This document shows, one piece after another, positions 3,016 to 61,041 of a stretch of 64,000 nt of DNA. The translations under genes and the position numbers were made by a program. Each line of letters opens with the position of its first letter. Position 1 is the stretch's first letter. Source of the DNA: Isoetes taiwanensis (Eukaryota > Streptophyta > Lycopodiopsida > Isoetales > Isoetaceae); NCBI GenBank assembly GCA_021234155.1, contig JAJEKV010000001.1:16437491-16501490 (forward strand). Direction: 5' to 3'. Below the pieces are notes generated by a model. That model saw nothing but the letters and a program-made list of their open reading frames with translations, was not told the DNA's origin and ran no database searches.

Positions 3016-6000
3016 CTACGTACAAAAGGATGGGCTCCAGGTTTCAATCCATTTCCTGGCCTCTTCTTCTTTCTTATCGTCTCTTTTTTTTTTTTCCAGG
3101 ATCCATGCATGCTGAGCTGCTATGGTTGTTACTATGTTCGTCCGCTGCTCCACCATAAGCATGTTCATGGGCATCTCCCTTTGTTCGAAAAGCTTGACTG
3201 TGTAGCATCTCCAAATGGACCAGACTGTGTAAGTTCTCAGAACATTCCATACTTCTTGATCATTTTTTGTGCCATTGACCTGGTATGGTCCTGCTGTTTC
3301 ACTAAGCATGGGTTCTAAGGTTCCTTCCCAGCTCCAGGTTGACACGTTTTGATCATAAGCCATATCATCTTCTCGCATACCTGTGAGGACCATGTGCCAT
3401 GTGAAGCTGCTCCTCTAGTTGGTGGTTATCAGATTATGCCAAATCTTTATTGTCTTTCTCCATATATTTTTGGCTTGTTGGCATGACCAGAATACATGTT
3501 TCTGTGTTGCAGGTTCTCCACACCACTTGCAATCATTATAGGCTGGAGGATGTCCCCTTACATATTTCCTGGGGATTGCACTCTTGTTTGCCATGAGCCA
3601 AGCTAAGTATTTGACTTTAGCTTGACAGCCATTGTTCCAAATGAGCTTGAGCAGTCTTTCTTTTTTTATATCTCTTTCAATTCCCAACGTTAAAGCTTTC
3701 TGAAATAGTTTGGATGCTTCATTCTCTTGTACAGCTTGCATGATTCTACCTATCTTTGGGGTGAAGGAGAAGAAGTCATACTGTCTAGCATTGCCAAACT
3801 TCCAGCACCACATACGGGGATCCCATTCCAGCTCAGAGGCATTGCAGTTCCTGAAGATCATAAGATTTACAGGTAGGTCTTTTTCTACTTCTGGGTCCAA
3901 GATCATTTCCTTGCCTTTGAGGTCCAGTACCCTTATCTTTCTCCATTGTCTTTGGGTTGCTTGAGGGATGTTTTGTATGTCAGCTACCACTTTTTGCTGA
4001 ATCACGCCTAGATCATTGGCTATGAATTTGTACCCTCTGTTTTCTAAGGTAGAGGGTTGGAACCATACCTCTTTTTCATTGTTTCTGTTGGGTGTTGGGG
4101 TCCAATGCCACTTTTCCTGCCATGCAGCATTTGGTTGAGTTAACTCTGCCCACCCATCCTTTACTGCCTGCATTAAGATTTCGACATCACTAACAATTCT
4201 TTTTCTCTTGCAGGGTCCCAGGACTTGGATGATTTTTTGGAGGGTGGCCTCCCTTGTTGGCATGACGATCTTGTCTAGATCCTTAATAAGCCTGATGCCC
4301 TTTTCATGGAGCCATCTCCATCCTGCTTTATATATGTCCTCGCCTAGTTGTTGTCCCCTAAATTTTATTCTAGAGTTGTGATAAAGAAGCTGTTCAGAAA
4401 CTGATCAGGAGATGTGTGTTCCAGTTGCATCAACATTGGTTTGAAATGCTCCCATAAGTTAAACAATCCAGCTGAAAAACCCTGCAGACCTTTAGCATTT
4501 AGAGGGCAGTTAGCATAGATCCAAAGGGGGTCAGGGTGCCATTTCATTCCCTTTTTCCTGTTGGGAGTTGCCTTGAGGAGCATATGTCTAAAAAGTATTT
4601 TCCAAGGTTGTTGGCCAGGTGAAAAGGCTTTCACAAATAATTTGAAAAGCAAGGCTTTAGCCTGTTTGACTGGATCAATCAGTCCCAATCCCCCTCTGTC
4701 CCTTGGCAATATGACATTTTTCCATCCCACTTTGGAAGCTGGGTTCATAATTCCTGTTTTGCCCCTCCAGAGGTATATTCTAATATATTTTGTAATTTCC
4801 TCTAAATAATTCTTTCGAAGTACCCAGCCACTTGTAAGGTACCACAGGGCCCCTAATATTATACTGTTTATAACAGTGACTCTGGCGGGGAGGGAAAGGC
4901 CCTTATTGGCCCATTCGGCAAGATGATTCTTTATTAGGGCAATCATATGAGTTTCTTGGTCTGTTTTATTGATATCAGGTCCAACTTGAAACCCCAGGTA
5001 TCTCACTGTCTGATTCTGCTCCAGCCACTTGAATCCCCTATCAATACCCCAATTTGGCCTTTGCTTGCTGGACACCCATATTCCATAGGATTTTTCCCAG
5101 TTAATTGCTGCTCTAGCTGCCAGGCAAAAGGTGGAAAGGCAAGTTTCCATTTTATCCAAGTTCCCAACTGTGCCCTTAATGAACAAGGCTGTATCATCAG
5201 CAAATTCACATTCCCTAAGGTCCATGTCCTGAGGAGTTAGGTCTCTTAGGAATTCATTGTGGTTGGGAAGCTCTAGGCCCTGGGGACCCTCATTGCTGGC
5301 TAGGTAATATCCTAAGGCCTCGGTCATTAGAATGAAAAGGGCTGGGGCCAGAGGGCAGCCCTGTCGGACTGACCTATGCAATAGAATCTGCCTGCCCATG
5401 TAGCCATTGATGCAAGTTCTGCTTTTGGTGCCCCTATAGAGTATCGAGGCCATGGATATGAACCTGTTCGAAATGTCCAGCTTAGCCATGACTTTCTCCA
5501 TGAAGAACGTTATGTCATAAGCTTCCTCAAAATCCAGCAGGATGATTGCCAAGTCTTTTCTGGATTCCATTGCCCACTCTTGGGCTAGCTTAAGTGTTGC
5601 TATATTCTCAAAAATCAGCATTCCTTTCACAAATCCTGTTTGGGAGCTTCTGGTAATGCCTGGGAGGATATCTCTAAGTCTTATAGATAGAGTTTTTGCA
5701 ATGATCTTATAGATGGTGCACATCATAGAAATCGGGCGCCAATTTTTTAACTCTGTTAGATCTCCTTTTTTTGGGACCAATGTTATACATCCCTCAAGAA
5801 AGTCCTGATCCCAATTCCCTTGCTCCATGGCATTGTTCCATGATTGATGGATGATATTGCCTATCCATTCCCAGTTTTTGAGAAAGAAAGAGGGGTGGAT
5901 ACCATCCATACCTGGGCTCTTTTCCTCATTCAATTCTTTCAGGGCCTTTTTAAGCTCATCTGTAGAGAAGGGTTTGGTCAGTCCTATATTCAGAAGGGTT

Positions 6001-7378
6001 TGGTCAGTCCTATATTCATATCTTCACTTAATCTTCTTGGGACCTTATCCAAAATCTTTTCAATTGCCTCCCTTCTGCTATAATCTATTGGGATTGCCTC
6101 AAATACTTCCTCGAAGTAATTGTCAACCATATCCTGCATTTCAAGCTGGTTAGTTACCAATTGCATGTTTTGATTTTTTAACCCCAGGATGGGAGGAGTG
6201 ACTGATTTGCCTTTTAGAGCTGTGTAATGTGCATGGGACAGTTTCCTCTCATTCAAAAGCCACGAGACATTACTCTTTTCAAAGTAGTTTAGGATTTTGT
6301 CCTGTTCAACTTTTATTATTTCCTCTTTGATCCTTTCAACTTGTCCCCTGGCCCATCCATTGTTTGGGTCTCTTTCAATCATGTTGGTGGCAGCAGCCAA
6401 ATTATTTCTGAGTGCAACTTCTTTGCCAAACAACTTCCTTTTTAGATCTGATTGCATCAGTCTAGCTTTCTTAGAAATCCATTGAATTAGTCCAGCCAGG
6501 CCCTGCTCTTGATTTAATTCCCAATGTTCAATGGCTGATCTCTGAAGTTCAGCATCCTCAGCAATTGATTTTCTGATGCTAGCTTTACGCCTTTCCCCTT
6601 CAATGTTAATATTTCTATTGAGGTATATCAGGGGTCTATGGTCTGAGAAGTCAGAGAATTCCGTCCTTATTTGTAAACCTCCACCCCTGTTGCAAAACCA
6701 GTCTGTGGCATAGATTCTGTCAAGTCTTTCTTGTACTTGCCTGGCATTGGAAACCCAAGTGAATCTGGGGTAATGTGGTGTGAAGTTTTCATGTAGGTAA
6801 CAATCAGTGATGCCAAGGTCAAAGCACATCTCATACCACATGGTTTTTTCCGCTTCAGTCATCTGGAGTTCATTGCTGCCTCCCAATCTGTCCTGGATGT
6901 CTTCAAGCATGTTAAAGTTCCCAAGGATCATGAGGCCCTGCAGATTGTCAGGTATGAGCGGAAAAATTTGTTTCCACATTGATACTCTAAGTTCAGATTG
7001 TCTACTAGGGGTATACACATTCAAAATTCCAATTTTTTCATTATCATGTTTGATTACGACAAGTTGAGCCCTTCCTGGGTACAAAATTTGGTGGCTTTCC
7101 ACCAGGGTGGTTCATTTCGGACCAACAACCAAAAGGGTGCCTCCACCTGCTCTAGATTCTATGATAGTGGCAGGATTCCAAAAATGTTGCCCTGAGGCTA
7201 TCTTCCTTCTTTCATTTCTGTCTGCTATTTTGGTTTCTTGTATTGCTAATATGTCAAATTTCCCTGATTCAGCTTCTATTTCTTTTATGTGCAGTTTCAG
7301 CCTATCCAATTTGGTGACCCTGTTATCCCTTGAGCTTATTCCCTGCATGTTCCAAGTCAAGAAGTTGAGGCTCGTCAT
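3016..7378 (-). pseudogene. L1-type LINE ORF2: endonuclease, reverse transcriptase, zf-RVT (broken)
   Basis: ORF2 normally nicks target DNA and primes reverse transcription on it. The N-terminus (7378 downward) has an APE-type endonuclease: LTWNMQGISS, then QETK, and later SDHRPL near 6630. The RT core lies at 5933-4365, with GMDGIHPSFF, VPKKGD, NWRPIS, RQGCPLAPALF and FADDTALF. A zinc-binding C-terminus follows near 3500 (CKWCGEPATQKHVFWSC). Lesions I can place: an in-frame TGA at 7112-7114, where a Trp is expected; a frameshift from a 26-bp tandem duplication (5966-5991 and 5992-6017); another frameshift between 4264 and 4365; and an in-frame TAG at 3415-3417, after which related sequence continues to 3016. 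It lies 127 bp after ORF1, the usual dicistronic L1 order. It is inactive as it stands. Confidence 0.92.
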
Positions 7379-7504
7379 TTAGGCACATTTATCCCTCTAC
7401 TTCTGAGGGTTTGAGGCTTGAACCAAAAGAATCCTGGTTTGGGGCCATCCCTGGGATTCCTTTCACCAATCAGCACCATGAAGTTGGTCTTTTCCTTTGT
7501 GGCT

Positions 7505-8008
7505 TCAATTGTTCTCAGCCTCTCGGGGCCATCCAGTTAGATCAATCATCATGTTTGTGGCCATTTCCATTCTTTCCTTTTCATTTTGTGGCAGCATTAC
7601 TATTGGGAACTCACATGAGTTTTTTTCCGCTAGCCAATGCTTTTTCCCTTTGTAGTACCATTCATGTGTTACAGCTAGAGTGTACTGCAACATTCCAGTC
7701 CGATCAGCTTGGCTTATTACATTTTGCAGGTTTTTATCTACTCCATCTGGATTAACAGCTGCAGGATTGAACTGGATGGTACTAACCATTTTGTTGTCTT
7801 TTCCTTGAGCAGGGGTGCTGTTAGTTGCTTCTCCAGCTGCTGCTTTGCTGAGCACACTCGTTTCAGGGAAGTTTCCTTCTTTTTGAACCTTATTGAATTC
7901 CATGATGAGGTCTGTTGCAGTGTTCTCATTGAGGTCCATATCTTTCACCTGTTGCTTATCCTTCCGGATCCATTGTTTGGTGACCCTTGGTTTTTTGGCT
8001 CTTCTTTG
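7505..8008 (-). pseudogene. LINE ORF1, C-terminal part (distal side of the gypsy insertion)
   Basis: About 165 codons on the minus strand, ending at 7505, are the distal end of ORF1. They are basic at first (RRAKKPRVTKQWIRKDKQ), with no further zinc knuckle. The open frame appears to extend to 8245, but everything above 8008 is gypsy LTR. The true continuation is on the far side of that insertion at 19066, as shown by the CTTTG duplication at both ends and by the position next to ORF2. No family domain is recognisable in this part. Confidence 0.75.
8004..8008. other. Target-site duplication CTTTG, left copy
   Basis: CTTTG directly precedes the LTR edge TGTTTGGGG at 8009. The identical pentamer follows the other LTR edge at 19061-19065. 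This 5-bp duplication is the standard signature of LTR-retrotransposon integration. Confidence 0.9.
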
Positions 8009-8588
8009 TGTTTGGGGTCTGGGTTCGGGAACTCCTGCAAGACAGCCCTCTGTGAGGACCTTTGTATCTAACAGGAGAATCCGGGGAACTATGTCACGCG
8101 GGATTTGCAAGAAGGGAACAAAAAAAAGGAAACAGAACAACCAAAATGAGAGGAAAATGATAGGCTTCCTTGATATCAATGATGAACATACATGAGCTCT
8201 CGCAATGGAGAGAAAAACTGAAAGGAGACAAGACTCAAAACTCATCTAGAACTCATGTGCGAGCTCTAGTCATATATATAGTACAATGGCCTCTGGCCCA
8301 ATATAGACACTCTGACTGATCTCGGTGCCGACTCCTGGAAGGAGGCCTGATTTGCAGGAATGCTGGCGGTGCCTCTTGAGGTGCCTGGAATCATGCTGAC
8401 GCTGACGCGGTGACGGGCCGTCACTTCTCTGAGCGGCGCCTCTTAGGCTGAGGAGGCTTTGGGCGTATGGTCTGTTTGCTTGGTCTTAGTGAGACCTTTG
8501 ACGACCGACCGGGGACTGTGGATCCTTGAGCTTGACCTGGTCCGTTGTATGCATGAATAGTCCTGTACCAGGAGGCACAGGACTAACA
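8009..8588 (-). repeat. Gypsy 3' LTR
   Basis: This matches 18493-19060 over its length with scattered substitutions and small indels. It starts and ends with the TG/CA dinucleotides expected of an LTR. A TATATATA box at about 8271-8280 lies in the same place as in the other LTR. The adjacent G-rich tract at 8589-8600 (minus strand) is a plausible polypurine tract. Confidence 0.92.
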
Positions 8589-9336
8589 CTCCCCCCCACC
8601 AAACGACACTCGTGAGTGAAGAAAAGGAGGAAGTGTTTCGAGGGTGGGAAGCCATCTGTCTCGAAAGTGATCCTCACGGGAGTGAGGATCGCACCATTAT
8701 GATACCGCCAATGAGATCCCGTGTTTGAAGAGCGGGAGGTGTGTTGAGGCCAAGGGCGGGATCTCGCATCAATAAAAATCGAGATCTTACCATGTCTTCA
8801 AAGGGCGATGGGCGCCGGAGGTAACGAACTCGACATTCCATGAGGAGGCAGTCCGGAGGCCGAAGGCGCGACACCGGCATTCGGATTGCAAAGTGAAAAA
8901 ATTAGGCCGGCCGATTTAAGAGCCGAGCAAGATGCATTTGAGAGCAAAGACAAAAAACTCGCTTGAAGATGGATCAAGGATCGGGTGAGGTGGTGGCATT
9001 CCAGAAGAAGGTGTCAAGACCATGAAGCGCATCACCCGGGGCGCTACCAACCACGCTCATTAGCAATATAGATCCATTCGTGGTGGTATCAAGAGTGGCA
9101 CCCTCCTCCCAATGGGAACGGCCGAACAAAGCGGGGATCCCACCGAGATCCGTCGAGATCCGAGGGGGGAGTCCATCCAAAGATGGCCATCCATGACCTT
9201 TGTCCAAAAGGGAGCGCCAATCGAAGTCGAGAACACAGGGCATGGAGGAACACCCGGGGAAGCATAGGGAGAAGGAACCATGCCCGTGGGCGTGGGTTCT
9301 TGAAATGTCTCCCTAATTGGATGACAAGATCCGGGA

Positions 9337-25870: not shown

Positions 25871-26484
25871 GAGAAGGGGCTAGAAATGTACCCCCCTTTT
25901 TTTTTTCCTTGCCCCCCTTAACCCCGATGCATGAAAGCCCTTGCCCTCTAATGCCATGCACGACACATGTACGGAAAATGAAAAGGACACAAGGCACAAG
26001 AGGAAGGTGCGGGGCTTCGTACCTCCAGCACCCCACCATATATTTTTCATTTTTTGTGGACTGAATAGACATTTTTTTTTTTTTGTGATCTGAATAGACA
26101 TTTTCTTTAAACTTGATATGGCAAATAAATGGTAAAAGAACTACCCGTAGATGATTCTAAACATGCGTACCAGGAGTGACTGGTAATACATCTAAAAATA
26201 TGGTCCAGTCTACACCATACAAAAAAAATAATAGGCACAAGCTCAATTACGTCTTATCTCTAGGATTTAATGGTGATTAGAAGGGAAAGTGCCCCCCTAA
26301 GTGACGAGAAATGAATTTACTAGGATTGGATTAGACGGCCGACGAAATTTATGACGAAGATTTAAGGTTCTGACCTAAACAGTATGGCAGACCCTCGAGC
26401 TGATAAAGGACTTTGCAGGTCACATAGGACCAAAAATATCTTCTAAGATTATGGCGGGTAACTGAATCATGGGTTTTAATTCAG

Positions 26485-26804
26485 ATGGCTGGACTGATAG
26501 CCATAGTTCTGAGGATGAGTTTAGATGTAGAGACGGAGAGGGAGCTTCTGTGGTGCAAAAATTCTGAAAAACTTGAGCAACTAAGTATGAATAGGAGAGG
26601 AGGCGGTCGGAGCTTTGACTCCAAAAGAAGTTTCGATGATAGCAGAGGTGGATACAATGCTAAAAGAGGCGGAGGTTTTCACCGAAACCCAGGTGGTTAC
26701 TTCAGGAACAACAATAACGAGCAATATGTTCCCGAGACACAACCAAATGAGGATGATATTGATTCCGAAAACGAAGATCTACAGGTAAAAACGAAGATCT
26801 ACTG
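26485..26804 (+). CDS. Exon 1 of ORF1: RGG-rich nucleic-acid-binding start (in terminal repeat)
   Basis: The frame encodes an acidic start, then MNRRGGGRSFDSKRSF, DDSRGGYNAKRGGG and RNPGGYFRNNNNEQ, an RGG/GY-rich low-complexity segment of the kind that binds RNA, then an acidic tail. It can be joined to ORF1 by splicing from GT at 26805 to the AG at 27732-27733: both sides are in phase 2, giving a continuous frame. In the 3' repeat the same exon starts at an ATG at 32306. In this 5' copy a 5-bp deletion breaks that start, but the ATG at 26485 lies in the right frame and restores it. The splicing is inferred from sequence only. Confidence 0.6.
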
Positions 26805-27733
26805 GTAAAATGAATTACCAAGAAAATGCATAAAGGAGCAGTCTATAAGCTGGACGGATTTGCTATCATATATTTGTTCTAATCTATACGTTGATTATTT
26901 TACTATCATACATCGGAATTATTTTGACTGTACATTTTTAGTAGATAGTCTGATATCAAGAGCAAAGGGTACATTAGGTGAAGGGCGAAGAGCCAAGAAT
27001 CACCTAATGTACCTTTTGGCCCTTGGGTCGTTACCGAGTCTATCGCTAACGTTCTCATGATTGGCTGCAGGTACGTGGTGATTCTTCTCCTAATGTATCA
27101 TCTTTGCTGTTATGGTGTTCTACTGGTCGAAACGGATGTACTGGTCTATATTTACTACACTGTGTAGTAGCGGATTTAGCAGTAATAAAAAATTCATAGT
27201 TTGGGCAAACTTGTGAACAGCCCAATGACAAAAGTATAAGGTTGACGGGTAAGATTAATTTTACTCCTTGTTAAACATTGAACACGTTGAAATAACAATC
27301 AAATGTGGAGCATTTTTTATAAGTAAAGTTCACACATAATACAGGTACGTTTTGCTGTGCATTTTAGGATGTTTTAATGGCAAACACGTTAAACCTTATT
27401 TTATAAGAATAACGTGCATTATGGAATGACTGTCCTAATGATCTGAACATCCCATGGAGTGGAAAAAGTTTTTGTTTTCAAAAAAATGATGATTGAGTCG
27501 GTAGATTCAAAAAAGAGTGTCAATAGTTTCTGAACTTGTTATCCATAGATTGTTGTACCAGACTCAAATCTATCTAGATCTTTGGATGGAATGATAAAAC
27601 TATGGAGGGATTGACCAAAGTAGTATGATGTGCTAGTAGGATTGTTGTCCAGACTAGTTATGTCCGGGTTTTTTTTAGACACTTCATTTCTCTAGTTTAA
27701 CTGGAGTTGCATCGTATCTATTGGCAATAACAG
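26805..27733 (+). other. Proposed intron spanning the terminal-repeat boundary
   Basis: The donor ACTG|GTAAAATG lies in the repeat and the acceptor GGCAATAACAG|GAATGG lies 57 bp beyond the repeat end, in unique sequence. The flanking frames are phase-compatible. An alternative donor at 26785 (CTACAG|GTAAAAA) has a better consensus but is phase 0, so it would break the frame. Confidence 0.5.
26969..27012 (+). other. 13-bp inverted repeat within the terminal repeat
   Basis: GTACATTAGGTGA (26969-26981) is the perfect reverse complement of TCACCTAATGTAC (27000-27012), with an 18-nt loop. The 3' repeat has lost the loop and part of one arm. It lies inside the proposed intron. Confidence 0.75.
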
Positions 27734-29252
27734 GAATGGACTATTGAATGGTATGTTACACTCACAAAATGGTATAACTCAGGAGGAGGCACAAGCGGAC
27801 AATATTGAGTTTGTACCTCCAGTATGGAATAGAGACCTTGGACCGATTGGCTATGCTACAAGCAGGATTACATGTCCAAGCTATGCCGTACAGACGGTAT
27901 TATGTTGCATCAAAAACCACCAGGTACACATACAGTTACTCGAAAAGGAGGCGGCCAGGAAGCCGGAGGAATTATCTGCTATTTCACATTTAGGTTTTAA
28001 TGAATGGTTGGAGTTAGTTCCCAGGCTTAATAGGCTTGGTGAGGATGGGGACGAGATCAGCAAGCTCATTGAGGATATATATGATAGCCTACCTACTAAA
28101 GTATATCACTGCACTATGGAAGAGGATAAGACCAAAAATCAATTCTTCAAAGGGGTGCTAGCTTTGGAAAAAGCCAATAAGATTAAAAAATCCAGCCTTA
28201 GTGATGTGATTATTCAAAAAACAGACACTTGTACTGATCAGGATGATGAAGATGACCCCTTTGGGGAATCGCTCCTGTCCGAACAAGATAAAATTGACAT
28301 CGGTAAAAAAGGAGCCAGCAGTGGTAATGGGGAGGATGATAAAGACTTCAGCTTCACTTTACACAACTGTCACCTTTTTCCCATTATTTCAGAAAGACTT
28401 GTTGAAAGCCACGCCATATTCTGTAATCAAGGGATCTGGAGAACAAAGAACTTTGGAGCCTTAGCCCCCATTAGCCGGGCCTCATGGATCATGCTCGGGG
28501 GGATTACACCCGAACAAGAAAAAATGGCTAAAATAGCAGCAAAAAAGATGGAAAAGATAGTGTACAAGGAAAAGTTTAAACTGAGAATTGATCATCGGTT
28601 CTTTGATAAGAAATGTAACAAGGATACGTCCATATATGTAAGGCAAAAAGGACATATGGCATATTCTACAATTACAAGGGATCCCTTCTACATCAAAAGA
28701 GTTTGGCGAAGCATGTGCCCATATTTCAAGTGCGTATGTGAACCCAGGGTGAAGGGTAATGCTTGTAAGGACAACATGACTTGGATTGACCATGCTATCT
28801 GGTACATGTTTAATAACCTAGACCACATTTTCCCTGATATGTCAGTTGTGGCGCAAATGGTCTCAATGAGGAAGTTTATGAAGACTACTCTAAGGGACAG
28901 CATAATCGCATACATTTCGTATTTGGAAGTAAGAAATACACTTATTACCATGACAATGATGCTGGCCACAGATCCATGGGCAGACCTAAAAATTGGCTTC
29001 CCTGTGTGTAAAATGGCAACTATATGCGAGAAAAGCATAAAACCAAAATCATTCATGAAAGATATGGAGGCTGGTTCCAGTAATGTAGCGGAAAGAAAGT
29101 CAAAACAGTTTAAACCCAGAACACCGTCGTATGGTACAGTTGCAGGTTATGCTCCACCGCGTATCACGGTGTTACCTGGACAAAGTGGCTCTAGTATGGC
29201 TGATAACTCCAACATTGAGCAGATTGGTACTCCAAGTGCCATGGGTGGCTGA
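27734..29252 (+). CDS. ORF1 of the Penelope-like candidate, Gag-like
   Basis: About 505 codons are open from the proposed acceptor at 27734 to a TGA at 29250-29252. No ATG lies near the 5' edge except the one at 27753, which fits an internal exon rather than an independent start. The protein has a helical N-terminal half (LLEKEAARKPEELSAISHLG), a central acidic stretch (TDQDDEDDPFGE), and a C-terminal half with scattered Cys/His (MCPYFKCVCEPRVKGNAC) followed by a Ser/Pro-rich tail. I recognise no database family. With the RGG exon it could serve as the RNA-packaging partner of ORF2, which is inference. ORF2 begins 369 bp downstream. Confidence 0.7.
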
Positions 29253-29620
29253 GTCTCAAAGCAAAGACAAGAGTCAAATGTCAGAGATGGGGATGGTGTC
29301 GTCCAACAGCTTAAATATGACAAATAGATATTGGTACTGTCAATTACAATAACTTTTTCCTTAAGAAATCTTATCACTCTTTAATGACATTTTGTATAAT
29401 GACTTGAGTCGTTGTATGAATCATACGATAGAATATTTTGAATGGTCTTTCTAAGTTATGAAAGTACCTATTGACAAGTGAAGCTGACATGCCATTGTCC
29501 ATGTCATGCTATTACATACTGCTACTCCAGTTTTGAAATTTAAAAAAAAAGGAGTATAGACATGTACAAGTTGACCATGACACCAATCAGATATTACGAT
29601 ATTTATATCTAAATAAGGTA
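29253..29620 (+). other. Inter-ORF region, possible intron
   Basis: An AT-rich 370-bp gap. A good acceptor, TTGTTTATATACAG at 29625-29638, opens directly into the ORF2 frame. I tested several GT sites near the end of ORF1 and found no strong donor in matching phase, so ORF2 may be separately translated. Confidence 0.4.
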
Positions 29621-31705
29621 ATGTTTGTTTATATACAGATTGCTAGGGTAATTACCAAGGATTGCCAAGGCAGGTTTCATCTGCTGGAGAATAAACAAAA
29701 GAGCAAACGAAAAGTAGTACATTGTTTCTTTCTGTCCAAAGTAATGGACAAAATATGCATTCCAAAAATAATACACAGACATATGACTAAATGCCTAGGG
29801 GAAATAGGTGAGCAGATTATGAATCTGACCATGTTCTCATGGAGATACACTGAAAGTTTGAAAGAAATATGCTACAAACCATATTATATTTTTGCACAAG
29901 ATGTGGAGGCAATATGCCCATGCAGTAACCCAAGTCTAAAAGAGTTTATAGATCCCAAGATTGGGCACATCAGAACTACGGATCTCAAAATTGTTAAATG
30001 CAAAAGTCTTAGAAACCTTTTTAGTAAAGGACTTGGGCATATACCAGACAAACCATTAATATGGAGAGACCTAAAAGCAGAACTGAGAAAGGTATGCAAC
30101 TCTATCTTTGAGTGGCACAAATACCAGTTCTCTGATATAAGTGAAAGTGACAAGATTGAAGTGATTAATGGGATACTTGAGCAAGCGGGCTCTGAAATAA
30201 AAGATGCATGTGACACAAGTATGGCTATAAGATTCCCACTAAATGACCCCGTTGTCATAAAGAATATCGAATGGCTGACAAAGAACCTTTACATATCCGG
30301 GGTTAATAAGGCATCCAATAACCCATCCTTTATATGCCCATATCACATAAAAGACATGGCCTTTAAAAGGCTTGGCAGTGAGGATTTTATGCCTTTGGGT
30401 AGTGAAAAGGAGAACCTATTAAAGGACCTCAATAAGGTAATAGAAGAGTATATTAAAGGCATTCCGGAAGAGCCCGGTAAATTACCATATCTGTTAGGCT
30501 TATTCAAGGCCCACAAATCTGAATATAGATGGATTACTAATGCCCATGGCACTGTGTATACAGAATTGGCAGAGATCATCACAGTTGTACTTAATGAGAT
30601 ACTGAACTTATGGCCCGAAATATCAAAAGATATATGTGCTAATATCAGCACTTTTGTGGGTAGTAAATTAAATGTCAACTGGATTGTTAATTCAATATAT
30701 GATGTGACAGTCAACTTATCCACAAGGATTGAGGAGGTGTTTGTAGCAGACATCACTAAATGTTATGAGAGCATATCCTTGCTTGGGGACCATGGTATCT
30801 GCAGTACCAGTGAAATGGTAATCAATGCTGCCTGGAACTATATGAAGAACAAAAATAAGAATTATGAGCTATGGATAAAACATTCCAGCGGAGGTAAGGT
30901 GACAACTAAATGGTTTAAAACAGCCCCAAAGGGAAAATGCTGGTCTATGATGAGCAAGAAAAGGTTTACTATGATAAATAACTGGCTGTTAGAAAATTGC
31001 TATGTCCAAATGGGGAAAGGGATATGGCAGCAAATCATGGGTATACCAATGGGATTTGCATGCAGTCCTAATTGGTGCAATATATACCTTGCATGGTTTG
31101 AATTGGAATTCATCAGAAACTTAGCAAGGCAAGGAAGTTTTGATGAGATTAAGAAATTTAAGCATGTGTTCCGTTATATGGACGATCTCCTCGCCATCAA
31201 TTGTCCTAACATTAAGAGATTCCTTAGTAAGGATGGGCTGGAGAACGGGCAACGAGTACAAATATATGACCTTAACATTTTGGACATTAAGGAAGAAACT
31301 GGATACACGGAATTTGCTCCAGGAATACAATTTGGTAACCAAGCAAACTTCCTTAATATGACAATACGGGTTTATGACAGAGCATTAGGCTTATTTCAAA
31401 CAGTAAAATATGATAAAAAGATGGCATTACCTTTTGACTCTATTAGATTTGTACATGCACATAGCTGCAGGCCATACTTCCAGGCTAGGAATGTGGTCAT
31501 ATCACAGATTATGCCATGTCTATATGTAAACACTAACCCAAGTAAAGCTGCAAAGGATATTATGGACCTAATTCAACAGTTTGTGTCCAATGGATTTGAT
31601 GAAGGAGGGATGAAGAGAAGAATTATTAAATATATCAAAGCCAGCGATTTCCCTGGGATTAAATTTGACGTCAATACCGTAATGCAAATGATCAAGGAAT
31701 ACTAG
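29621..31705 (+). CDS. ORF2 of the Penelope-like candidate: reverse transcriptase
   Basis: A 694-codon frame with no lesion. Landmarks by residue: a CPC pair and GHI (99-117); LLGLFKAHK (292-299), like the K-x-H-K block that precedes RT1 in Penelope-like enzymes; DITKCYESI (377-385), first catalytic Asp; GIPMGFACSP (474-483); YMDD (519-522), catalytic pair; NFLNMTI shortly after; then SCRPYFQARNVVISQ, the thumb-like region. About 170 residues follow YMDD, leaving no room for a GIY-YIG domain, and none is visible at the N-terminus. It probably synthesises cDNA on its own RNA, perhaps priming at DNA ends as proposed for EN-minus PLEs. The first codon is TTG-independent ATG at 29621, but translation might begin elsewhere if ORF2 is spliced. 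Confidence 0.75.
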   Translation: MFVYIQIARVITKDCQGRFHLLENKQKSKRKVVHCFFLSKVMDKICIPKIIHRHMTKCLGEIGEQIMNLTMFSWRYTESLKEICYKPYYIFAQDVEAICPCSNPSLKEFIDPKIGHIRTTDLKIVKCKSLRNLFSKGLGHIPDKPLIWRDLKAELRKVCNSIFEWHKYQFSDISESDKIEVINGILEQAGSEIKDACDTSMAIRFPLNDPVVIKNIEWLTKNLYISGVNKASNNPSFICPYHIKDMAFKRLGSEDFMPLGSEKENLLKDLNKVIEEYIKGIPEEPGKLPYLLGLFKAHKSEYRWITNAHGTVYTELAEIITVVLNEILNLWPEISKDICANISTFVGSKLNVNWIVNSIYDVTVNLSTRIEEVFVADITKCYESISLLGDHGICSTSEMVINAAWNYMKNKNKNYELWIKHSSGGKVTTKWFKTAPKGKCWSMMSKKRFTMINNWLLENCYVQMGKGIWQQIMGIPMGFACSPNWCNIYLAWFELEFIRNLARQGSFDEIKKFKHVFRYMDDLLAINCPNIKRFLSKDGLENGQRVQIYDLNILDIKEETGYTEFAPGIQFGNQANFLNMTIRVYDRALGLFQTVKYDKKMALPFDSIRFVHAHSCRPYFQARNVVISQIMPCLYVNTNPSKAAKDIMDLIQQFVSNGFDEGGMKRRIIKYIKASDFPGIKFDVNTVMQMIKEY

Positions 31706-31788
31706 AAGGTACGCCTAAAATGGTACTTAATATTTGAAAAGGATTTAGTGTTATAATAATACATGAAGCTGTATGGAGCAAACTATAG

Positions 31789-31896
31789 GGTTGTAAAAGA
31801 CCCCTACTGTAACAAGTAGGGGTCTGCTCACCCTATTAGTTACAGTATTAAATGATCTCATTCTATTTGAGTAAAAACAGGGGTCCTTTATAACCT
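31789..31896 (+). other. Strong RNA hairpins in the element's 3' leader
   Basis: AGACCCCTACT (31798-31808) pairs perfectly with AGTAGGGGTCT (31815-31825) around a 6-nt loop. A competing longer pairing links AGGGTTGTAAAAGACCCC (from 31788) with GGGGTCCTTTATAACC (from 31880). This segment lies between the ORF2 stop and the 3' repeat. Confidence 0.7.
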
Positions 31897-31913
31897 TACG
31901 GCAGGAGGTAGGG

Positions 31914-33500
31914 TTTTTTTTGTGATCTGAATAGACATTTTCTTTAAACTTGATATGGCAAATAAATGGTAAAAGAACTACCCATAGATGATTCTAAACA
32001 TGCGTACCAGGAGTGACTGGTAATACATCTAAAAATATGGTCCAGTCTACACCATACAAAAAAAATAATAGGCACAAGCTCAATTACGTCTTATCTCTAG
32101 GATTTAATGGTGATTAGAAGGGAAAGTGCCCCCCTAAGTGACGAGAAATGAATTTACTAGGATTGGATTAGACAGCCGACGAAATTTATGACGAAGATTT
32201 AAGGTTCTGACCTAAACAGTATGGCAGACCCTCGAGCTGATAAAGGACTTTGCAGGTCACATAGGACCAAAAATATCTTCTAAGATTATGGCGGGTAACT
32301 GAATCATGGGTTTTAATTCAGATGGCTGGACTAATAGCCATAGTTCTGAGGATGAGTTTACACCAGATGTAGAGACGGAGAGGGAGCTTCTGTGGTGCAA
32401 AAATTCTGAAAAACTTGAGCAACTAAGTATGAATAGGAGAGGAGGCGGTCGGAGCTTTGACTCCAAAAGAAGTTTCGATGATAGCAGAGGTGGATACAAT
32501 GCTAAAAGAGGCGGAGGTTTTAACCGAAACCCAGGTGGTTACTTCAGGAACAACAATAACGAGCAATATGTTCTCGAGACACAACCAAATGAGGATGATA
32601 TTGATTCCGAAAACGAAGATCTACAGGTAAAAACGAAGATCTACTGGTAAAATGAATTACCAAGAAAATGCATAAAGGAGCAGTCTATAAGCTGGACGGA
32701 TTTGCTATCATATATTTGTTCTAATCTATACGTTGATTATTTTACTATCATACGTCGGAATTATTTTGACTGTACATTTTTAGTAGATAGTCTGATATCA
32801 AGAGCAAAGGGTACATTAGGTGAAGGTAATGTACCTTTTGGCCCTTGGGTCGTTACCGAGTCTATCGCTAACGTTCTCATGATTGGCTGCAGGTACGTGG
32901 TGATTCTTCTCCTAATGTATCATCTTTGCTGTTATGGTGTTCTACTGGTCGAAACGGATGTACTGGTCTATATTTACTACACTGTGTAGTAGCGGATTTA
33001 GCAGTAATAAAAAATTCATAGTTTGGGCAAACTTGTGAACAGCCCAATGACAAAAGTATAAGGTTGACGGGTAAGATTAATTTTACTCCTTGTTAAACAT
33101 TGAACACGTTGAAATAACAATCAAATGTGGAGCATTTTTTATAAGTAAAGTTCACACATAATACAGGTACGTTTATCTCCAGTTTTGCTGTGCATTTTAG
33201 GATGTTTTAATGGCAAACACGTTAAACCTTATTTTATAAGAATAACGTGCATTATGGAATGAATGTCCTAATGATTTGAACATCCCATGGAGTGGAAAAA
33301 GTTTTTGTTTTAAAAAAAAATGATGATTGAGTCGGTAGATTCAAAAAAGAGTGTCAATAGTTTCTGAATCTGTTATGCATAGATTGTTGTACCAGACTCG
33401 GATCTATCTAGATCTTTGGATGGAATGATAAAACTATGGAGGGATTGACCAAAGTAGTATGATGTGCTAGTAGGATTGTTGTCCAGACTAGTTATGTCCG

Positions 33501-33538
<38 letters not shown>
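31914..33538 (+). repeat. 3' terminal repeat of the Penelope-like candidate
   Basis: Matches 26072-27676 and ends in a run of about 36 T. It keeps the unbroken version of exon 1, with an ATG at 32306 and a donor at 32647. Confidence 0.9.
32306..32650 (+). CDS. Second copy of RGG-rich exon 1 (3' terminal repeat)
   Basis: Encodes the same RGG/GY-rich segment as 26485-26804 with the original N-terminus MGFNSDGWTNSHSSEDEF. There is no ORF1 downstream, so unless another element copy follows this exon has nothing to splice to. Read straight through, it ends at a TAA at 32648-32650 just after the donor site. It shows what the 5' copy looked like before its 5-bp deletion. Confidence 0.55.
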   Translation: MGFNSDGWTNSHSSEDEFTPDVETERELLWCKNSEKLEQLSMNRRGGGRSFDSKRSFDDSRGGYNAKRGGGFNRNPGGYFRNNNNEQYVLETQPNEDDIDSENEDLQVKTKIYW

Positions 33539-35215: not shown

Positions 35216-35430
35216 TGAAAAACCCACAAATACAAATGTGTGTCATAGTGCTTCGTAGTAGGCGAACCCCCACCCTACTACAGCCCCACCAGAGCACAAC
35301 CAAAGAATATCCCAAATACAACTAGTGGACGTCTCCCCCCCAGTCTACAACCAATACTACTAATACACAAAAGGACACACAAGCGTGCCTAATGGCCACA
35401 CGGCCTCCAACGATGTCCTAAGACATCCAA

Positions 35431-35960
35431 ATGGCCTCACGGCCTCCAATGAAGTACACAAATGGCCCTAAGGCCTCCAAATGGCTAAAAAGCCCAAATA
35501 CAGCTCAAGTGGCCCTGATGGCCTCCACATGGCCTCACGGCCTCCAATGTAGTGCTCCAAATGGCCCTAAGGCCTCCAAATGGCTAAAAAGCCCAAATAC
35601 AGCTCAAGTGGCCCTGATGGCCTCCACATGGCCTCACGGCCTCCAATGTGGTGCTCCAAATGGCCCTAAGGCCTCCAAATGGCTAAAAAGCCCAAATACA
35701 GCTCAAATGGCCCAGATGGCCTCCACACGGCCTCCTCACTACCTCAATGTAGTGCTCCAAATGGCCCTAAGGCCTCCAAATGGCTAAAAAGCCCAAATCT
35801 TTGCTCAAATGACCCTCATGGCCCAAATACTACCTCCACCCTCCAATGATGTGCTCCAAATGGCCCTAAGGCCTCCAAATGGCTCAAAAGCCCAAATCTT
35901 TCCCAAAGTGCCACACGGCATCCAATGGCCCGAAGGCCCAAATCCTGCTCAGAAGGGCCT
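35431..35960. repeat. 99-bp minisatellite
   Basis: The phrase AATGGCCCTAAGGCCTCC recurs at 35461, 35560, 35659, 35760 and 35859, giving five units of 99-101 bp. The open frame across it (period 33 residues) is an artefact of a unit length divisible by three. A T-run lies at 36086-36112. Confidence 0.95.
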
Positions 35961-37533: not shown

Positions 37534-37564
<31 letters not shown>

Positions 37565-37625
37565 CGGGGTTAGGGTTCGGGTTGGGGTTAGGGTTGGGTT
37601 GGGATTGGGGTTGGGGTTGGGGTTG
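37533..37625. repeat. Degenerate telomere-like repeat
   Basis: TTAGGG and variants (TTTAGGG, TTGGGG, TCGGGG, TTCGGG) in tandem for about 90 bp. Interstitial and heavily mixed, so not a functional chromosome end. Confidence 0.8.
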
Positions 37626-58423: not shown

Positions 58424-59440
58424 ATGAACAAAAGGCTAGAGCACATTTGCCAAGCAGGCTTCAGGCCGGAACATTCGACCATTGATCATCTGGTGACATT
58501 ACGTGCTGTAATGGAAGGAGCAAAAGGTAAAAACAACGAAAGATACTTAGCATTCATTGGCTTGGCGAAGGCATTTGACAGTGTTAAAGGGCAAAATCTA
58601 GCTAGCAGGTTGGAACATTTCATGTGCCCATTGAACTTTGCCATGCAGTATCATGTATGTATGAACAAGTCCTCATTCAGCTTTCCGTTCCATTTAACAA
58701 GAGCAGATAACTAGTATCACTGGAGTGAAACAAGAATGCCCTTGTTTGCCGACATTATTTGGTTTGTATATTGATGAAATAGAAGACTGGCTACAAAGGC
58801 AAGGAGGTGTAGGAGCAAATATTTATGGTTATGTAATCCAATTACTACTTTATGCAGATGACATAGTCCTTATCTCACATAGTGCTGCAGGACTTCAACA
58901 ACATCTAGATACATTAAATGAGTTTTGTATCCAGAGAAGTATGCAAGTAAACATAGATAAATCAAAGACGACGGTAAATGATACTAGGATTCAACCAAAA
59001 TTTACAATTTATGGAAGAAATCTCGAACAGTCTGGACAATACAAGTATTTAGGTATTGAAGTATCAGATCATAAGTGGACTGATGCAGTACAAAATAGAG
59101 TCATAGGTGGCTTAAGAGCCTTATATGCTATGTTCCATATATGCCGTCAAAATAACATATGCCACTGGCATTTCAGAAGCTTAATTTACAATGTGCAAGT
59201 ACGAACGGTGGTGCTATATGATCGTCAGGTCTGGGCTCCGGATCTCTCTCAATATCTTTGGAAGAAAGTAGAGCAAATACAGAAAAGATTTCTATCAGAG
59301 GAGCTTGGTGTAAAGGCTCAGACACCTTATTGTATGTTGTTGGCTGAAGCTAGTATGCTACCATTAGAGGCAGAAGCCTTATGTCAGACATTGGACTATG
59401 TAAATAGAATAAGAGAGCTCACTCCAGACCAATTGTCGGG
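58424..59440 (+). pseudogene. LINE copy 1: RT, N-terminal part before the nested insertion
   Basis: Outer, older LINE. It has QAGFRPEHSTIDHLVTLRAV and GLAKAFDSVKG in one frame (58424-58714). After a frameshift near 58710 come GVKQECPCLPTLFGLYIDE, LLYADDIVLIS and VNIDKSKTTV in the frame from 58725. The catalytic Asp expected in the A motif is replaced (IGLAKAFDS for xxDxAKAFD). At about 59440 the frame runs without a break into the second LINE copy, making a chimeric 477-codon frame that is a nesting artefact. Its C-terminal end lies beyond the insertion at 61240-61700. Confidence 0.85.
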
Positions 59441-61041
59441 CTGGGCAGAGGCAGCAGAGGTGCGGGCCCTCACTCAGGCAGGATTTAGACCCCGGCACTC
59501 AACCATTGACCACATATTCACGTTGCGAACTCTGATTGAAGACAGCAGGAACCGCCGTCAGGATCTATATTGTTGCTTTGTGGATTTTGCAAAGGCGTTT
59601 GACACTGTGCCTCGGGAAAAACTATGGGCAAGACTGCAACAGCTGGGGGTTCCTGTAGATTTGCAGAATGCAGTGTATAGGCTATATGAAAGATGCTCGG
59701 GTCGGTTGCAGCAGACAAGCCAACCATTTGATAGTAGTATCGGGGTTCGTCAGGGATGCCCTCTCTCCCCAACATTGTTTGGGCTTTACATTGATCAATT
59801 GGAGAGCTGGCTTGCTGATAATGGGGGCGATGGAGCTCACCTTCTCTATCAGATCATCAGACAGTTAATATATGCTGATGATGTGGACCTCCTAGCTTAC
59901 ACACCAGCAGACATGCAACGACATCTCGATGCCCTGGACACATTCTGCCAAGCGACTGATATGCGCGTCAACCTGGCCAAGACTAAGGTGGTTTTCATAT
60001 CATCTTCCCTCCTTCAGTTACCAAGGCCAGAATGTGGAAGTTGCATCCACATACAAGTATTTGGGAGTGGAGTTTCCTTCTACTATGCATTGGGACACAT
60101 CCATACGACTACGAGTGACGGCAGGCTGGAAGGCACTATATGCAATGCAAAACAATAGTCATAGAGCGGAGTTGTATGATTGGGCCCATCAGTCACACCT
60201 GTTCAAGGTCTTAGTAGAGCCTGTCCTTTTATACGGGGTGGAAGTATGGGGCCCAGTAGTATCACTTGCTACTTGGAATGACTTGGAGTAGGTCCAGAAA
60301 GCCTTCTTAGTACGAGCACTAGGGGTGAAGTCCACAGTCCCATATCAAATTCTACTGCAGGAGACAGGATTCTTGCCTCTTCAGAGGGCGGCCCTTGATC
60401 GCCACATTGTCTATTTTCAGAAGGTAATCAATATGGACGATGCTCGTCTCCCTAAACTAGCTTATATCATGGCAATGGGGCCGCAGCGCCTCAAGGCCTG
60501 CTGGAGGGAAAAGAGAGCTCAATGGTTGGCTAGATGGAATGTGCAGGAGCACAGGTGCATACATGTGCAAACAGAGGCAGATCGCCATAGCTTGAGGCAA
60601 TATCTTGATGCTTGCTTCCTCAGCAAGCTTTGGGATGCCAATGCCCTTGAACATGTCAAGACAGCACACTATCAGCGCCACATAAATCCCACATTGGAAC
60701 GAGGCCCGCAATGCTACCTGCGTACCCATTTGCCCATGAAAAGGCGGAGACTCATTGCCTCCATTCGCACACATCTTCGAATTGAGACGGGTAGATGGAT
60801 TGGTGAGCCACGCTAGGACAGGCTCTGTCAATGCTGCCAAATGGGAGTCATTGAGGATGAATCTCATACCCTTCAAAGTTGCCCAGCATATGATCAAATT
60901 CGGACGCGCTATGCTGAATTGGTCAGGCCTGGCCAGCCGTTACATGTGACATTGAGCACACCATCCGTACGGGTGCTGGGATCATACCTTCAGGAGGTTA
61001 TGGACATGCGAGATCAGCTATGTCCTCGGGCACACACTTGA
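59440..61041 (+). pseudogene. LINE copy 2: RT and CCHC C-terminus, nested in copy 1
   Basis: This copy starts at the RT region (QAGFRPRHSTIDHIFTLRTL) and lacks the endonuclease, the usual 5' truncation. RT blocks: CFVDFAKAFDTVPREKLWAR, GVRQGCPLSPTLFGLY and YADDVDLLAY. After a frameshift near 60010 it continues with STYKYLGVEFPS, passes in-frame TAGs at 60289-60291 and 60814-60816, and ends with a Cys/His segment, LCQCC followed by DESHTLQSCPAY. The TAGs replace codons that look like CAG. The 3' end lies near 61240. Confidence 0.9.

Follow-up and report, generated by a model that had tools for sequence, protein, structure and literature searches.

Candidate endonuclease-less retroelements of Isoetes taiwanensis with complete long repeats, poly-T junctions and a predicted three-exon gene

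A 64,000-nucleotide stretch of the genome of Isoetes taiwanensis (Lycopodiopsida; GenBank assembly GCA_021234155.1, contig JAJEKV010000001.1, positions 16,437,491 to 16,501,490, forward strand), hereafter the window, contains at positions 26072 to 33538 a retroelement that is one copy of a large, still selected family. On balance we lean toward interpreting it as an endonuclease-less retroelement with a Penelope-type-looking reverse transcriptase (RT), which would prime on A-tracts by means of a U-run at the 3' end of its RNA and would be expressed from a three-exon gene. Judged from its genomic copies, the family appears to join the absence of an endonuclease with complete long repeats, poly-T sites and a predicted spliced gene. 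The parts of the window copy, in window coordinates, are listed below; LTR denotes long terminal repeat, ORF open reading frame, and Tn a run of n T residues.

26050..26079 (+): partial extra copy of the repeat's first bases, in a 29-bp register, immediately beyond the outer edge of the left repeat
26072..26084 (+): left outer T-run, T13
26077..27676 (+): left LTR-like repeat, with T8 at each end
26485..26784 (+): predicted exon 1 (RGG-rich), left copy; donor CAG/GTAAAA at 26784/26785; 5-nt deletion relative to the right copy
26785..27782 (+): predicted intron 1, made up of the remainder of the left repeat and the leader; acceptor CAG/GA at 27782/27783
27669..27690 (+): conserved left inner border, T8-AGACACTTCATTTC
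27783..29252 (+): predicted exon 2, ORF1; the window copy stops at 29252, the frame of relatives ending at the position of 29325-29327 (TAG)
29328..29638 (+): intron 2 as predicted in the family; donor reads AT in the window copy; acceptor CAG/AT at 29638/29639
29639..31705 (+): predicted exon 3, reverse transcriptase (ORF2 of the original prediction)
31706..31913 (+): 3' region, containing a strong stem-loop as well as a conserved block whose terminal purine-rich tract (31900-31913) adjoins T8
31914..33510 (+): right LTR-like repeat
32306-32626 (+): predicted exon 1, right copy, open from its ATG
33503..33538 (+): right outer T-run, T36

The original prediction described this as a rare element, but the rarity is not supported. 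A search of the same genome (1,658,258,908 bases) with the window RT gave 67 reported matches from 4865 first-look candidates (64 scored), at 52-100% identity, many of them full length and without a stop. Twenty genomic places were fetched with flanks, together with four short extensions, and are named here by L numbers; with the window copy they make up the 21 regions examined. Two complete repeats were found in 10 of the 21, the other 11 being tandem, disrupted or truncated by the limits of the fetched sequence, or yielding no pair of repeats. The window copy is among the ten measured copies, and the RTs of the other nine are 52-79% identical to its own. Sixteen RTs are open, and ten of them, aligned over 696 columns, show 52-78% identity to the window RT, with the catalytic aspartates, KAHK and GIPMG invariant; the RT motifs originally quoted for ORF2 are indeed present. 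The four unsaturated pairs among 120 gave dN/dS values of 0.07, 0.08, 0.15 and 0.17, and on these four pairs the RT is under purifying selection.

As first described, the window copy is a young retroelement with two long ORFs between nearly identical direct repeats. An alignment of the two repeats (26077-27676 and 31914-33510) has 1617 columns; the 1580 of them without gaps contain 14 substitutions (0.89%), and there are 4 indels. In the ten complete copies the repeats measure 1.6-2.7 kb, are full length on both sides and are 93.9-99.3% identical within a copy against 43-81% between copies, so the two repeats appear to be made alike at each insertion. The inner borders are nearly invariant across the family: GTCCGGG-T8 closes the left repeat and comes before AGACACTTCATTTC, and CCTACGGAAGGAGGTAGGG stands ahead of the T8 that opens the right repeat. 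The left inner T-run is 8 long in 14 of 17 places and 7 in the remaining three, and the right one measures exactly 8 in 17 of the 20 regions, the exceptions being L117 (10), L122 (13) and L118 (no run). A palindrome in the left repeat (GGTACATTAGGTGA...TCACCTAATGTACC; window 26950-27020) is 20 bp longer than its counterpart in the right repeat (32795-32840).

T-runs also lie outside the repeats. The left outer run is at least 13 long in 12 of the 13 copies whose left borders were checked, the right one at least 10 in 11 of 12, and of the 10 copies for which both ends were available, 8 have runs of at least 10 on both sides; a T-run at 9610 of L121 was left out of the count, there being no repeat end before it. 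Across the entire 64-kb window, ten runs of A or of T reach a length of 10, two of them at the element. No fixed-length target duplication was seen in ten copies, the longest word common to both flanks within 25 bases beyond the T-runs being 8 (L107) and otherwise at most 6, and a look for an empty site within the window yielded nothing. The internally deleted L120 was considered as a 5'-truncated copy ending in poly-T, a reading rejected because its left end is the repeat's own start; it is thus no evidence on the target. The right flanks of L115 and L125, which are independent insertions, have a T-run and then the same start, GAGGGTAAGA, perhaps the reversed 3' end of one A-tailed repeat family, although this is a guess.

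Attachment to chromosome ends, which had also been proposed, is at odds with where the copies lie. The window occupies 16.4-16.5 Mb of the 53.1-Mb contig C907, eight family places fall at 16-43 Mb of the same contig, and copies sit deep within multi-megabase contigs, beside T-runs. On these contig-internal positions and T-run junctions we rejected the telomere-attached type of Athena and Coprina, the latter of which we take to be grouped with the same endonuclease-deficient Penelope-like elements. One flank of L108 has a single CCCTAAA unit about 65 bases from the junction.

The long open frames of the original prediction are real, but their boundaries and their independence have to be revised. 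The internal region holds an open frame of 722 codons, compared with a longest frame of 214 in 1000 base shuffles of that region. Codon-position bias is present in ORF1, in ORF2 and in an RGG-rich frame of each repeat (p 0.02 for the left copy), a third coding piece. It is absent between ORF1 and ORF2, from the predicted first intron and from the right repeat's 3' part. Conserved splice sites in the genomic copies indicate that the RGG-rich frame, ORF1 and the RT would be exons of one predicted gene, in which the ORF1 described as separate would be exon 2. Where the repeat match extends to the end of exon 1, 19 of 22 repeat copies have a phase-0 CAG/GT donor at the aligned position, a number that rises to 21 when L115 is granted a 3-base shift, and one L117 repeat has lost the donor; repeat copies with shorter matches were left unscored. 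Exon 1 of L114 is frameshifted in both repeats, and one donor is lost there. A 20-bp tandem duplication at the exon 1 end (26768-26810 and 32610-32652) gives two donor-like sites, of which only the first keeps the frame.

In 15 of 17 rows ORF1 homology begins right after a phase-0 CAG; L117 has TAG instead, and L114 is one base off. Several copies have stops just upstream. ORF1 of the window copy probably starts at 27783. An acceptor at 27695 was dropped in favour of 27782 because conservation is found only at the latter. RT homology likewise begins right after a phase-0 CAG in 17 of 19 copies, the exceptions being L109 with TAG and L114 with an offset of one base; L130 also has the phase-0 CAG, and in L108 and L122 the conserved first CAG before the RT is in phase. 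An in-frame stop lies within 10 codons upstream of the RT, with no ATG between, in 14 of the 19 copies. Among the exceptions, L111 has its stop at 17 codons and no ATG, and an ATG occurs in L106, L113, L117 and the window copy, which explains why the first reading of the window began ORF2 at 29621. That ATG is 18 bases before the conserved acceptor at 29638/29639 and so is unlikely to be where the RT protein starts.

At the other end of ORF1, a TAG stop sits directly on a GT donor (AAATAG/GTA-like) in 13 of 18 copies with a located ORF1 end, and the bare motif AAATAG or CAATAG/GTA was found in the stretch searched in 14 of 21 regions. When this donor is joined to the RT acceptor, ORF1, the UAG and the RT fall in one frame, as read directly for L111 and L115. 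The window copy departs from this pattern: its ORF1 is missing some 25 C-terminal residues that relatives have, and AT stands in place of GT at its ORF1-end donor, so that this copy may be recent but impaired, and its description as apparently intact is doubtful.

The eight ORF1 proteins align at 49-76% identity and share conserved cysteines (CPYFKC.CEP...C), yet have no Pfam or PDB relative beyond weak single-member matches; searches of the PDB by sequence and by profile gave no useful match. An ORF1 dN/dS filter kept three frames and zero unsaturated pairs, and AlphaFold models made without an alignment had mean pLDDT of 32.8 and 31.7. The originally reported absence of RNase H, integrase, tyrosine recombinase and GIY-YIG domains stands after hidden Markov model searches were extended to family members. 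Pfam found no RNase H, integrase, protease or nuclease in 10 RT and 8 ORF1 proteins; no GIY-YIG match in these or in six further ORFs of the window element; and no tyrosine recombinase in these proteins or in the window element's ORFs, on which a DIRS reading was rejected. LTR retrotransposons are defined by RNase H, integrase, protease, TG...CA ends and a tRNA primer site, and membership of the copia or gypsy type was rejected, no RNase H, integrase or protease having been found by Pfam.

Pfam RVT_1 matches the window ORF2 weakly (E 6e-5, below the gathering score), and RVT_1 is found in 10 of 10 family RTs. Two LINE (long interspersed nuclear element) remains in the window served for comparison, one at 3418-7111 (-) with zf-RVT and one at 58698-60155 (+) with two RT stretches; we take them to be L1-type and RTE-like, respectively. 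A family RT profile matched them with probabilities of 0.2 (L1) and 0.1 (RTE-like), whereas the two matched each other at 96.8, and a LINE reading was rejected on this comparison, in keeping with the original prediction. Against 32 bacterial-type RTs from viral contigs the probability was 78.1, in the motif B-C region. The best match, at 94.8, was a 62-residue block in L097, which looks like an animal Penelope-type RT. It belongs to a decayed animal-type RT at 3240-3413 (-) of L097 (GIPMGTNCAPLLADLF), on a contig of a metagenome-assembled genome (MAG) of a Bathymodiolus (mussel) symbiont, and that contig is probably host DNA contaminating the symbiont MAG. In genome contigs no relative of the whole RT turned up, and the motif search gave this single block. 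In viral contigs there was one chance match to a phage, peptide patterns found no relatives, the motif pattern gave only bacterial-type RTs, and a phage or plasmid origin was discarded at tblastn E values of 5-10 (plasmids) and 2-9 (phages). Searches of NCBIfam, PHROGs and PADLOC yielded nothing beyond generic RT matches and weak ones attributable to chance.

The life cycle that we lean toward would begin with one transcript starting in the left repeat. Exon 1, RGG-rich and RNA-binding-like, would be spliced in phase 0 to ORF1, and ORF1 to the RT, with one UAG placed precisely where the two are joined; the RT would be produced either by reading through this UAG or, as an RGG-RT protein, by skipping exon 2. 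Unspliced RNA ending in the repeat's 3' U-run would pair with an A-tract having a free 3' end, such as one within an older retroelement's poly(A) tail, and this A-tract would prime synthesis of the complementary DNA (cDNA). The cDNA would end in A8, the complement of the leading T8, and could join the T strand of the same tract. Identical repeats would be remade at each insertion, as full-length LTR-like copies, by strand transfer or template jumping between repeats. The T8 ends, the outer T-runs at both ends and the lack of a detected nuclease together suggest such U-run/A-tract priming. We advance only tentatively, and think somewhat improbable, the fuller proposition that a Penelope- or telomerase-type RT builds complete LTRs without RNase H or integrase, that the T8 ends dock on poly(A)/poly(T) on both sides, and that the UAG at the ORF1/RT exon junction of a three-exon gene controls how RT is produced.

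Several observations weigh against the A-tract-priming, three-exon interpretation. Copies were picked by RT score, which favours complete ones, and complete, precise double repeats resemble LTR replication more than target-primed reverse transcription. The interpretation supposes that poly-T was there before insertion. L124 has only T6 on its left, and an interruption follows the first 7 residues of the right outer run of L108. Four copies (the window copy, L109, L113 and L124) have no ORF1-end donor, and in two it is displaced: in L121 the same donor comes just after an earlier TGA, and in L125 a GT donor is 9 bases past the stop. In L114 the RT is open, yet exon signals are out of phase or lost. 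No hammerhead ribozyme was found in the window element, to which the search was confined, by Rfam (E up to 1) or a core-pattern scan, and several single family members have weak Pfam matches, probably due to chance. The RT was compared only with the window L1 and RTE-like RTs, bacterial-type RTs and the L097 block. The pattern that picked out the L097 block had been built on the window RT's own motif, so the match was partly preselected, and its support is uneven outside that motif: upstream of motif B, 13 of 1000 shuffles reached the score; at motif C none did, yet the best bacterial-type RT scored 36 against 37; and at motif A 389 did, with the RTE-like RT scoring 45 against 26 for the window RT.

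An alternative is an LTR-type lineage that carries an RT not of LTR type, making double-stranded cDNA with complete LTRs from an RNA that has a primer site behind the left repeat and a polypurine-like tract ahead of the right one, and entering A/T tracts by end joining or by an integrase unrecognised in ORF1. Both repeats are complete in the ten measured copies, although that set was chosen for completeness, and conserved blocks lie exactly where the primer site and polypurine tract would be. We nevertheless regard such a lineage as unlikely: RNase H, integrase and protease are missing from the Pfam results for 10 RT and 8 ORF1 proteins, the repeats begin and end in T8 rather than TG and CA, no fixed-length target duplication is seen, and the left inner border of the window copy has no TGG-type tRNA primer site. 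Still harder to sustain, and very unlikely in our judgment, is the proposal that the repeats are ordinary Penelope pseudo-LTRs (pLTRs) arising only from partial tandem insertion, with the poly-T incidental. Tandem arrangements do occur in 3 of the 20 fetched regions (L106, L113 and L114), and pLTRs and partial tandems, with the pLTR carrying the ORF start, are on record in excerpts of PMC11167929 and PMC3846280; yet each of the ten complete copies has two full-length repeats whose borders are precise, and outer T-runs of at least 10 stand on both sides in eight of the ten. The outer T-runs might instead have been added during insertion, by slippage on the element's own T8 ends, and so not be target sequence. 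Within a single copy the left and right runs vary freely in length relative to each other, and the internally deleted L120 keeps the repeat start with a T30 run, as slippage would allow; the inner T8 runs, which have the same sequence, stay exactly 8 in most places, so slippage would need to act at the outer ends only, and we consider it rather unlikely.

Other repeats accompany family copies. About 4 kb to the right of the window element is a degenerate interstitial TTAGGG/TTTAGGG-like array (37534-37624), and 99-bp tandem repeats, about five copies, lie at 35426-35897. In L118, a tandem array with a period near 345 bases lies downstream of the RT copy, at about 7441-9289 as oriented.

The family shares features with several known systems and differs from each of them. 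Like copia and gypsy LTR retrotransposons it has two full-length, near-identical repeats, conserved blocks just inside both, and ORF1 followed by the RT; it differs in its T8 ends, in showing no tRNA primer site and in the domains not found. In murine leukaemia virus, pol is expressed as gag-UAG-pol. The UAG between the ORF1 and RT frames, in frame after predicted splicing, is similar, except that here it would lie exactly at a predicted exon junction.

Comparison with Penelope elements rests on excerpts of the cited papers. Endonuclease-less forms are described there as two-ORF elements of 4-6 kb (PMC6431247) and are listed in Selaginella, Pinus and Picea (PMC9033089). Together with Athena, these endonuclease-deficient elements resemble the present family in an RT without GIY-YIG, an ORF1 before the RT and their plant records (PMC9033089, PMC6431247); the present family is distinguished by complete repeats of 1.6-2.7 kb, T8 borders, poly-T instead of telomere sites and an exon encoded in the repeat. 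Protist and fungal endonuclease-deficient elements are said to have no pLTR organisation, in a statement that does not name plants, and endonuclease-containing Penelope elements to have pLTRs and retained introns (PMC3846280). Canonical Penelope/Poseidon elements share with the present family direct repeats carrying the coding start and partial tandems, and they have retained introns (PMC3846280, PMC11167929), the introns of the present family being predicted ones. Unlike them, the present family has no GIY-YIG, its window copy has no detected hammerhead, its repeats are far longer than the 193-218 bp pLTRs of PMC3846280, and T-run ends replace their 8-10 bp target duplications. Telomere-associated transposable elements are described as rare in plants, those of Selaginella being named (PMC12477314), and Penelope-type RTs share ancestry with telomerase (PMC5718144).

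The family bears on how Penelope elements that lack an endonuclease could get to sites within chromosomes. Its copies are many, similar and apparently selected, and they share landmarks that stay fixed, namely the T8 borders, the flanking poly-T and the exon signals, which makes both A-tract priming and expression through a UAG at the exon junction testable. If the proposed interpretation is true, these lycopod elements would represent an LTR-like organisation that arose with an RT not of the LTR type.

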